Source of the DNA: Pseudomonas subflava
Lineage (GTDB): Bacteria > Pseudomonadota > Gammaproteobacteria > Pseudomonadales > Pseudomonadaceae
Length of the DNA: 64,000 nt
Assembly: GCF_023823685.1 (NCBI RefSeq)
Contig: NZ_JAMXBF010000003.1
Span: 248,001 to 312,000 of the forward strand
Direction: 5' to 3'
Part shown: positions 8,711 to 57,531 of the stretch, piece after piece
How positions within the stretch are numbered: position 1 is the stretch's first letter
How the letters are laid out: each line of letters begins with the position of its first letter
Notes under the pieces: generated by a model
Seen by the model: only the letters and a program-made list of their open reading frames with translations
What the model was told of the DNA's origin: nothing
The model's database searches: none
Made by a program: the position numbers and the translations under genes

Positions 8711-10024
8711 TCAGTTGGCGTCGCGCGGCAGCAACAGCCCCAGCGGCAGACAGATGCGCGCCTCCAGGCCGCCACCCGAGCGGTTGCGCAGCTCGACGCT
8801 GCCGCCGTGCAGCGCGGCGATGCGCTTGACGATGGCCAGGCCGAGCCCGGTGCCCTTGCCGCCACGGGCGCGATCGCCACGGATGAACGGGTTGAAGATC
8901 TCGCCCATCTCCGAGGCGGCGATGCCGGGGCCACGGTCGAGCACGCTGAGCACCACGTAGGGCGCGCTCTCGTCGCCGGCCAGATTGGTCACCACCTCCA
9001 CGCTCTGGCCACCGTAGCGCAGGGCGTTTTCCAGCAGGTTCACCAGCAGGCGCTTGATCGAGACCCGGCGCAGCGGGAAGGCTGGCAGCTGCTCCAGGTA
9101 CAGGCGCACCTGCTCGCTGTGCTGGTTGTACGGCGCGACCACCTCGCGCACCAGCTCGCCCAGGTCGCAGAGCTCCGAGCGCTCGTCGCGGCCATCGCGG
9201 ATGAAGGCGAGGAACTGGTCGAGGATGGTGTCCATGTGCTCGATGTCGCGGATCATGTCCTCGGTCATCTCGGCGTCGCCGCCGAGCATCTCCAGCGACA
9301 GGCGCAGGCGCGTCAGCGGCGTGCGCAGGTCATGGGAGACGCCGGCCAGCATCAGCTCGCGCTCGCGGGCGCCCTGCTCGATGTCCTCGGCCATCTGGTT
9401 GAAGGCGCGGTACACCTCGGTCATCTCGCTGGGCGTGTCGCTCACCGGCAGGCGCACGCTGCGCCCCTGACCGAACTGGCGGGCAGCGAACACCAGGCGC
9501 TTGAGCGGCGCGTTCAACTGGGTGACGAAGATCCACGCCGCCGCGGTGGAGAGCAGACCGATGCCGAGGAACCAGCCGAGCACGCTCCAGATCTTCTGCC
9601 CGCGCAGCGGATAGGGGTAGAGCGGCACCTTCAGCCAGTCGTCGCCCAGGCTGGGCGCGCGCACCCAGAGGGCCGGCGGGCTTTGCACCCGCACGCGCAC
9701 CTCGGTGTCCGGGCCCAGCTCGGACTGCATCTGGCGCAGGAACACCTCGGAATAGGGCCAGTGCTGCTCGGTCGCCGGCACCTGCTCGCGCGCCACCCGG
9801 GTCAGGGTCGCCGCCTCGGCGATCTGCGCGCGGTCCTCCGGGTCCGCCGCCCAGTAGGCGCGCAGGGTCAGCGCCGCGCCGTGGCTGTACTGGCGGTCGA
9901 CCAGCATGTCCTCGTTCATCATCAGGTACACCAGGGTCAGCGCCTTGGAGAACAGCACGACGACGAGCACCAGCCACAAGGTGCGGGCGAAGAAGCTTTG
10001 CGGGAACCAGCGAGGGGTTTTCAT
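8711..10024 (-). CDS. envZ: EnvZ/AmgS-type sensor histidine kinase
   Basis: 437-residue inner-membrane kinase. Order: helix 1 (about 13-33), periplasmic sensor region, helix 2 (about 155-180), HAMP, HisKA box VSHDLRTPLTRLRL with the phospho-histidine near residue 231, then an ATPase domain with N box LLVNLLENALRYGG and G boxes DRGPGIA and GKGTGLGLAIV. It pairs with the OmpR-type regulator at 10464; in P. aeruginosa the pair (AmgS/AmgR) controls envelope stress and aminoglycoside tolerance. Unusually, a small membrane-protein gene separates kinase and regulator. Confidence 0.94.
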   Translation of the reverse strand: MKTPRWFPQSFFARTLWLVLVVVLFSKALTLVYLMMNEDMLVDRQYSHGAALTLRAYWAADPEDRAQIAEAATLTRVAREQVPATEQHWPYSEVFLRQMQSELGPDTEVRVRVQSPPALWVRAPSLGDDWLKVPLYPYPLRGQKIWSVLGWFLGIGLLSTAAAWIFVTQLNAPLKRLVFAARQFGQGRSVRLPVSDTPSEMTEVYRAFNQMAEDIEQGARERELMLAGVSHDLRTPLTRLRLSLEMLGGDAEMTEDMIRDIEHMDTILDQFLAFIRDGRDERSELCDLGELVREVVAPYNQHSEQVRLYLEQLPAFPLRRVSIKRLLVNLLENALRYGGQSVEVVTNLAGDESAPYVVLSVLDRGPGIAASEMGEIFNPFIRGDRARGGKGTGLGLAIVKRIAALHGGSVELRNRSGGGLEARICLPLGLLLPRDAN

Positions 10025-10462
10025 TTATGTCGCCATGTAGCGGTCGCCGGAGCGGCGAGCGCACCAATGCGGGAGAACGGACTGACCTGCGTATGACAGC
10101 GCAATGCCCGCGGCAGCGCAGAACAGCAAATAGGCCGAACGGTAGGGGTGACTCCAATCTGCCCAAGGCGGCGCGAGCACCAGCAAGGGAAGAACGAACA
10201 GGGCCATGGCGCCGAGGGCCAATTGCAGGCGCCGCACGGGCCAGAGCAGCGCACCGGTGTTCTGCAGCAGCATCAACAGCGGGAACCAGCACAGCTGCAA
10301 CGCGCCGGCCAGCAGGCCCCAGGCCACGCCACCGCGCAGCGGGCGGCCCTGCTGTAAAGCCAGCTCGTGGCCGAACCCGTAGAGGGCCAGCAGCGCCAAA
10401 CTGCTCAGCCCCGTGAGCAGGAGCACCCACAGGCTGCGGATCAACGGCACGCGCCGGCGCAC
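10025..10462 (-). CDS. four-helix membrane protein encoded between ompR and envZ
   Basis: 145-residue unrecognised inner-membrane protein with four hydrophobic segments (about residues 7-28, 44-66, 78-97 and 107-128) and arginine-rich ends. The start is GTG at 10462, directly after the ompR stop, and its TAA abuts the envZ ATG, so all three genes are tightly packed and likely translated from one message. Codon use and GC match the neighbours, arguing for a real gene. In P. aeruginosa amgR and amgS are, as I recall, adjacent, so this is an insertion. A role in kinase signalling is a guess from position only. Confidence 0.75.
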   Translation of the reverse strand: MRRRVPLIRSLWVLLLTGLSSLALLALYGFGHELALQQGRPLRGGVAWGLLAGALQLCWFPLLMLLQNTGALLWPVRRLQLALGAMALFVLPLLVLAPPWADWSHPYRSAYLLFCAAAGIALSYAGQSVLPHWCARRSGDRYMAT

Positions 10463-10463
10463 A

Positions 10464-11183
10464 TCACTTGCTGCCGTCCGGCACGAAGACGTAACCCACG
10501 CCCCAGACGGTCTGGATATAGCGCGGCTTGGACGGGTCCGGCTCGATCAGCCGGCGCAGGCGGGAAATCTGCACGTCGATGGAGCGCTCCAGCGCGTCCC
10601 ACTCGCGGCCGCGCGCCAGGTTCATCAGCTTGTCGCGGGTCAGCGGTTCGCGGGCGTGCTGGACCAGGGCCTTGAGCACGGCGAACTCGCCAGTGGTGAG
10701 CATGTGTACCTCGTCGCCCCTCTTCAGCTCGCGGGTCGCCAGGGACAGCTCGTAGTCGCCGAAGCTGACGGTCTCGTCCGCGCTGGCCGGGGCGCCCGGC
10801 ACTACTGGCGCCTGACGGCGTAGCACGGCCTTGATCCGCGCCAGCAGCTCGCGCGGGTTGAACGGCTTGGCCAGGTAGTCGTCGGCGCCGCCCTCCAGGC
10901 CCTGGATGCGGCTGGCCTCGTCGCCCTTGGCGGTGAGCATGATGATCGGCATCTGGTTGTTCGCCTCGCGCAGGCGGCGGCAGGCGGATAGGCCGTCCTC
11001 GCCCGGCAGCATCAGGTCGAGCACCAGCAGCTGGAACAGTTCGCGGGCCAGCAGGCGGTCCATCTGCTCGACGTTCTCCACCGCGCGCACGCGATAACCC
11101 TGCTCGCTGAGGAAGCGTTCCAGCAGGCGGCGTAGGCCGGGGTCGTCGTCGACGATGAGGATCTTTTCGCCTTCGGTGCTCAT
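10464..11183 (-). CDS. ompR: OmpR/AmgR-type response regulator
   Basis: 239-residue DNA-binding response regulator. The receiver domain has the acidic pair at D12-D13, phosphoacceptor D56 ([13 protein letters not shown]), T/K switch residues (MLTAKGD, LAKPFNP); the C-terminal winged-helix domain ends with [25 protein letters not shown] split over the usual DNA-recognition region. First gene of the ompR - membrane protein - envZ unit, preceded by a 174-bp divergent region shared with tex. Confidence 0.95.
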
Positions 11184-57351: not shown

Positions 57352-57531
57352 CAGCTCCCTGGTGTGTTGGCCAGTCGGTGATGTCCCTGAGCCGATACGC
57401 ACAACCACGGGGGTTGCCAGTGGGGCCGGTGTGCATGTCCGCCTGACGGAAAGCCTTAACGCCCTCTGCAACCTCCACCTTGAACTTTCGGGTTCAAGGG
57501 CTAACCCGACAGCGGCATGACCGGGGAGTCT
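57352..57531 (+). ncRNA. ssrS: 6S RNA
   Basis: About 180-nt RNA that mimics an open promoter and sequesters sigma70 RNA polymerase in stationary phase. It lies between zapA and fthC, as in other proteobacteria. The closing helix is visible: CTCCCTGGT (57355-57363) pairs fully, with one G-U pair, with ACCGGGGAG (57520-57528). The internal TTGAACTTTCGGGTTCAAGGG hairpin region near 57480 and the large central bulge fit the family. Ends are approximate. Confidence 0.85.

Follow-up and report, generated by a model that had tools for sequence, protein, structure and literature searches.

An optional gene for a predicted four-helix membrane protein between ompR and envZ in Pseudomonas

The ompR-envZ (amgR-amgS) locus of Pseudomonas subflava raises the question of what a third open reading frame is doing between the regulator and kinase genes. 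We analyzed it in a window of 64,000 nucleotides (contig NZ_JAMXBF010000003.1, positions 248,001 to 312,000), to which all coordinates refer (Table 1). An earlier note, made from the letters of the DNA, had described an uncharacterised four-helix protein wedged between ompR and envZ with almost no spacer, and both its coordinates and the packing proved exact: the ompR stop TGA (10466-10464) is followed by a single base (10463) and then by the GTG of the frame (10462-10460), and the stop TAA of the frame (10027-10025) abuts the ATG of envZ (10024-10022) with a spacer of 0 nt. The flanking genes were found to be an OmpR-type regulator gene followed by an EnvZ-type kinase gene, the kinase scoring 338 bits with the EnvZ model NF007004, below the equivalog cut-off of 415. 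Upstream of ompR and downstream of envZ, both on the opposite strand, are what we take to be a tex-like gene and a RimK-like gene, respectively. Elsewhere in the window, a full-length 6S RNA was identified at 57353-57531 (+) (Rfam RF00013, 122.8 bits).

Table 1 Features of the ompR-envZ locus in the window
Feature	Position	Strand	Remarks
ORF, 145-aa four-helix membrane protein (predicted)	10025..10462	-	start GTG 10462; alternative GTG 10450
Shorter reading, 141 aa	10028..10450	-	GTG start common to closest homologue L052
ompR/amgR response regulator gene, directly upstream of ORF	10464..11183	-	NCBIfam NF007005, 437.6 bits, cut-off 331
envZ/amgS histidine kinase gene, directly downstream of ORF	8711..10024	-	NF007004 (EnvZ) best NCBIfam match, 338 bits; Pfam HAMP, HisKA, HATPase_c
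Predicted helix 1	10352..10453	-	residues 4-37, AlphaFold2
Predicted helix 2	10244..10327	-	residues 46-73, AlphaFold2
Predicted helix 3	10175..10240	-	residues 75-96, AlphaFold2
Predicted helix 4	10031..10147	-	residues 106-144, AlphaFold2
Conserved motif GRxxRGGxxWG, predicted first periplasmic loop	10316..10348	-	residues 39-49; alignment, topology
Conserved motif W-[AS]-H-P-Y-R, predicted second periplasmic loop	10139..10156	-	residues 103-108; alignment, topology

Because the GC content of this region is about 68% and the region is full of spurious open reading frames, the length of the frame alone is not evidence of a gene, and the many spurious frames in the vicinity are what speaks for the frame being open by chance in such GC-rich DNA. 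But the frame was kept in 10 homologous loci (the window and nine others in Pseudomonas), a strong synonymous bias was seen, with dN/dS of 0.16 between the window and L052, 0.23 between L019 and L041 and 0.19 between L019 and L042, and the competing frames were mostly interrupted in the relatives, and together these results show that the frame is a gene. Judged from these alignments, it is under purifying selection in close pairs (dN/dS about 0.16-0.23), and the chance-frame explanation, already refuted by the ten loci with a kept frame and low dN/dS, retains practically no probability.

The frame encodes a product of 145 residues (VRRRVPLIRSLWVLLL...GDRYMAT) if translation begins at the GTG at 10462, as the earlier note had proposed. 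The true start may instead be an in-frame GTG at 10450: L052 (P. alcaligenes NBRC 14159; 79% identity), the nearest homologue, lacks a start codon where the window has the 10462 GTG and retains just the one that corresponds to 10450. The translation start is thus uncertain and may be either of the two.

The AlphaFold2 model, built from an 11-sequence alignment, had four helices (mean pLDDT 85.7, pTM 0.78), and the conserved residues of the family were concentrated in the two motifs listed in Table 1. Positive charge was found in the N-terminus, the middle loop and the C-terminus, a pattern that fits an inner-membrane protein whose two ends are cytoplasmic and whose two motifs face the periplasm. 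No Pfam, NCBIfam, PHROG or PADLOC family matched the protein, the sole Pfam match being to an unrelated family at E 0.25, and a PDB sequence search gave nothing usable. The fold comparison suggested in the earlier note gave no Foldseek match either (best E 2.1 in the PDB and 0.4 in BFVD). The phage, plasmid and viral collections contained no homologue, and profile searches across the order and the class turned up no sure homologue beyond Pseudomonadaceae, to which the family seems to be confined. With ten loci, low dN/dS, four predicted helices and no family match, the description as an uncharacterised four-helix membrane protein was borne out.

Strong matches were rare: three of 300 Pseudomonas genomes in the protein search, four of 400 in the profile search and, within the genus, six genomes in a profile search of 299 Pseudomonadaceae genomes, the window's own genome being included each time. 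Homologues were located at the same site in nine other Pseudomonas loci, with P. alcaligenes NBRC 14159, P. alcaligenes MB-090714, P. mangrovi TC11 and P. peli DSM 17833 as the named carriers; the MB-090714 copy is protein-identical to that of G483 and was counted only once. The earlier note had suggested a synteny survey and held that homologues lying mainly away from ompR/envZ would speak against its reading. In the survey, all 10 strong matches in the genus lay between ompR and envZ, so the close homologues are found at this site, and the protein and profile searches gave no strong-scoring copy elsewhere in the genus. In all 10 carriers the distance from the ompR stop to the start of the frame was -4 to +13 nt, and that from its end to the envZ ATG was -4 to +3 nt; the junctions took different forms (GTGA and ATGA overlaps, TAAATG abutment, short spacers) and were tight throughout.

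As the earlier note had supposed, such a third component is not part of the standard system, the gene being absent from all 87 non-carrier Pseudomonas loci examined. The 27 non-carriers nearest by EnvZ had ompR-envZ gaps of 12-279 bp and 60 further ones had gaps of 13-127 bp, all with no gene inside. The nearest relative by kinase, G013 (EnvZ 95% identity), is without the gene and has a gap of 12 bp, and in one sister pair, which has 8 residue differences in OmpR and EnvZ together, G451 carries the gene and G118 does not. Comparison of these loci indicates that the ompR-envZ (amgR-amgS) operon can carry this gene as an optional third member. REP-type palindromes were also seen in the gap in many of the 27 nearest non-carriers, with kinds differing by species (L010-L038), for example GTAGGAGCCAGCTTGCTGGCGATC...GCCAGCAAGCTGGCTCCTAC, or GTAGGGTGGATGACGC...GCGATCCACCCTAC.

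The presence of the gene is scattered among species: on the OmpR+EnvZ tree, 8 changes were needed to account for the carriers, and at least 4 of them were forced by well-supported branches. Patchy presence with many absences, together with the truncated copy of a distant homologue in a related genus (G453), could be taken to mean that the gene is a relic of a Pseudomonas ancestor, weakly constrained, repeatedly lost and of little present function. But close pairs are under purifying selection, the tight junctions have been kept in differing forms, and no broken copy or remnant was recognised when decayed copies were sought in the non-carrier gaps examined, so we consider a relic very improbable.

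The divergence of the gene also did not match that of its flanks. Between the window and L060, pS was 0.70 in the gene and 0.35 in the flanks, whereas between L019 and L041 synonymous divergence was lower in the gene than in the flanks (0.22 vs 0.42, p=4e-5), and in the same pair the first 80 codons of envZ gave a pS of 0.20 and the remainder of that gene one of 0.53. Because of this mismatch, the alleles have probably been swapped between species by recombination via the flanks, a claim that is well supported but short of proven, since a topology (AU) test of such exchange, run on this short protein, was not significant (p=0.08). Other constraints in conserved genes can lower synonymous divergence, but they cannot account for the pair whose gene is younger than its flanks.

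Outside the genus, the clearest distant relative was L045 (genome G397, another Pseudomonadaceae genus), a small four-helix protein with both motifs of the family and about 29-35% identity (E down to 6e-10 against family members). It is not near ompR/envZ, which are adjacent in that genus. A gene for a small secreted cysteine-containing protein lies 3 bases downstream of L045 (1507-1917), and the relative of L045 in G453 (L048/L133) is a truncated copy with the first 49 residues and then TAG. Weakly similar proteins were seen in two further settings. In two genomes a small membrane protein is encoded just after the mrpG-type last gene of an Na+/H+ antiporter operon, and a third genome has it nearby (L062, L050, L051; enlarged L066, L068, L067), with an internal TAG in one copy, and a four-helix protein is encoded near a CxxxDLKSFVQAF-type secreted protein gene in two Pseudomonas genomes (L063, L061; enlarged L064, L065). 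Homology to the family is likely for the secreted-protein-linked group (hhalign 86%) and unsure for the antiporter-linked group (hhalign 47%), and both groups were left out of the argument on the gene.

What the protein does can be approached from its place in the operon. The reading we favour, though we give it somewhat less than an even chance, is that the protein is a membrane partner of the EnvZ/AmgS kinase, optional and exchanged horizontally, which tunes the activity of that kinase; presumed co-expression is what ties the two together. The protein would be made from the same message as the regulator and kinase by coupled re-initiation, would contact the membrane or periplasmic part of EnvZ/AmgS in the inner membrane that the two share, and would thereby shift the balance of kinase and phosphatase activity, so that species with different alleles, or none, might set their envelope-stress response differently. 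Spread between species would proceed by homologous recombination through the conserved flanks, which would keep the gene at the same place. The tight placement of all 10 strong homologues in the genus between ompR and envZ agrees with such a modulator, and so do the low dN/dS (0.16-0.23), the good four-helix model with a charge pattern that places both ends in the cytoplasm, and the gene divergence that is lower (L019-L041) or much higher (window-L060) than that of the flanks; a precedent exists in MzrA, an EnvZ-binding inner-membrane protein (PMC2727453). The further-reaching form, in which this new family, seen to date in Pseudomonadaceae alone, is an exchangeable third subunit of EnvZ/AmgS whose alleles recombine between species via the ompR/envZ flanks and retune this core envelope-stress sensor while the kinase is unchanged, we place on the unlikely side.

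However, several results do not favour a modulator. No EnvZ or OmpR residue convincingly tracked the presence of the gene, the only associations being weak and uncorrected for shared descent or multiple testing. Most Pseudomonas do without the gene and their kinase works without it, the sure homologue from outside the genus (L045) lies away from a regulator-kinase operon of this type, and recombination through the flanks predicts a shared location even without a functional link. A missing EnvZ signature together with an optional, exchanged gene fits a modulator whose target is the conserved membrane portion of the kinase; it fits an effector or a cargo gene equally well.

As an effector, the protein would belong to the same stress response but have no contact with EnvZ, and would protect or remodel the inner membrane whenever the regulator and kinase are made. 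The packing suggests the co-expression that this requires, the conserved motifs are predicted on the periplasmic face, and the distant relatives are near unrelated genes. Regulator-kinase operons are usually expressed at a low level, which makes this one ill suited to encode a structural membrane protein, and the slot between regulator and kinase, rather than after both, favours an amount matched to the kinase. AmgRS of P. aeruginosa answers and protects against cytoplasmic-membrane damage (PMC6173428), which would suit an effector and is compatible with a modulator as well. In sum, we hold an effector to be unlikely, though it deserves real weight.

The scattered presence and divergent alleles also resemble those of immunity, exclusion or defence genes, and small four-helix proteins include the immunity proteins of pore-forming bacteriocins, so the gene could instead be cargo, a fast-evolving membrane protein of such a type for which the ompR-envZ junction is only a safe transcribed home. 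But no PADLOC, Pfam, NCBIfam or PHROG family and no entry of the phage, plasmid or viral collections matched it, no strong-scoring copy occurs elsewhere in the genus, and its neighbours in all carriers are ompR and envZ with no adjacent toxin gene, which makes cargo quite unlikely. Membership among the bacteriocin immunity proteins was considered separately and rejected, as neither an adjacent toxin gene nor an immunity family match was found.

Textbooks present EnvZ/OmpR as a system of two genes; AmgRS, the form it takes in Pseudomonas, controls how the cell responds to membrane damage of the aminoglycoside type. Operons of the ompR-envZ type are already known, as is the notion of a third component in the membrane; neither the protein family nor its patchy occurrence within ompR-envZ, with swapped alleles, appears to have been described in the libraries and papers that were searched. 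Sister species whose kinases are almost identical but of which one has the gene and the other does not, such as G451 and G118, are ready-made pairs in which to measure the effect of an added membrane partner on the same kinase.

Among known third components, VraT of the Gram-positive VraSR system is a membrane protein encoded with its kinase and regulator, and it modulates the kinase. LiaF of the LiaSR system is encoded and acts likewise (PMC3543457). The window protein resembles both in its operon position alone, whereas the phylum and the kinase family are different, and the window protein scores below the cut-off of every Pfam and NCBIfam family, so it was not assigned to the LiaF/VraT families. 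MzrA of E. coli is small, like the window protein, and lies in the inner membrane, as the window protein is predicted to; MzrA binds EnvZ and raises OmpR~P, and it has one membrane helix with a periplasmic C-terminus (PMC2727453). But MzrA is encoded elsewhere (yqjA-mzrA), whereas the window protein is encoded between ompR and envZ and has four predicted helices in place of the single one, so it is not a member of the MzrA family and the analogy is confined to how the two might work. The closest comparison is OmpR-EnvZ itself (AmgR-AmgS in P. aeruginosa), to which the genes flanking the frame belong: in the standard operon regulator and kinase are adjacent, whereas in the window, and likewise at nine other loci, a gene, of 145 codons in the window, lies between them.
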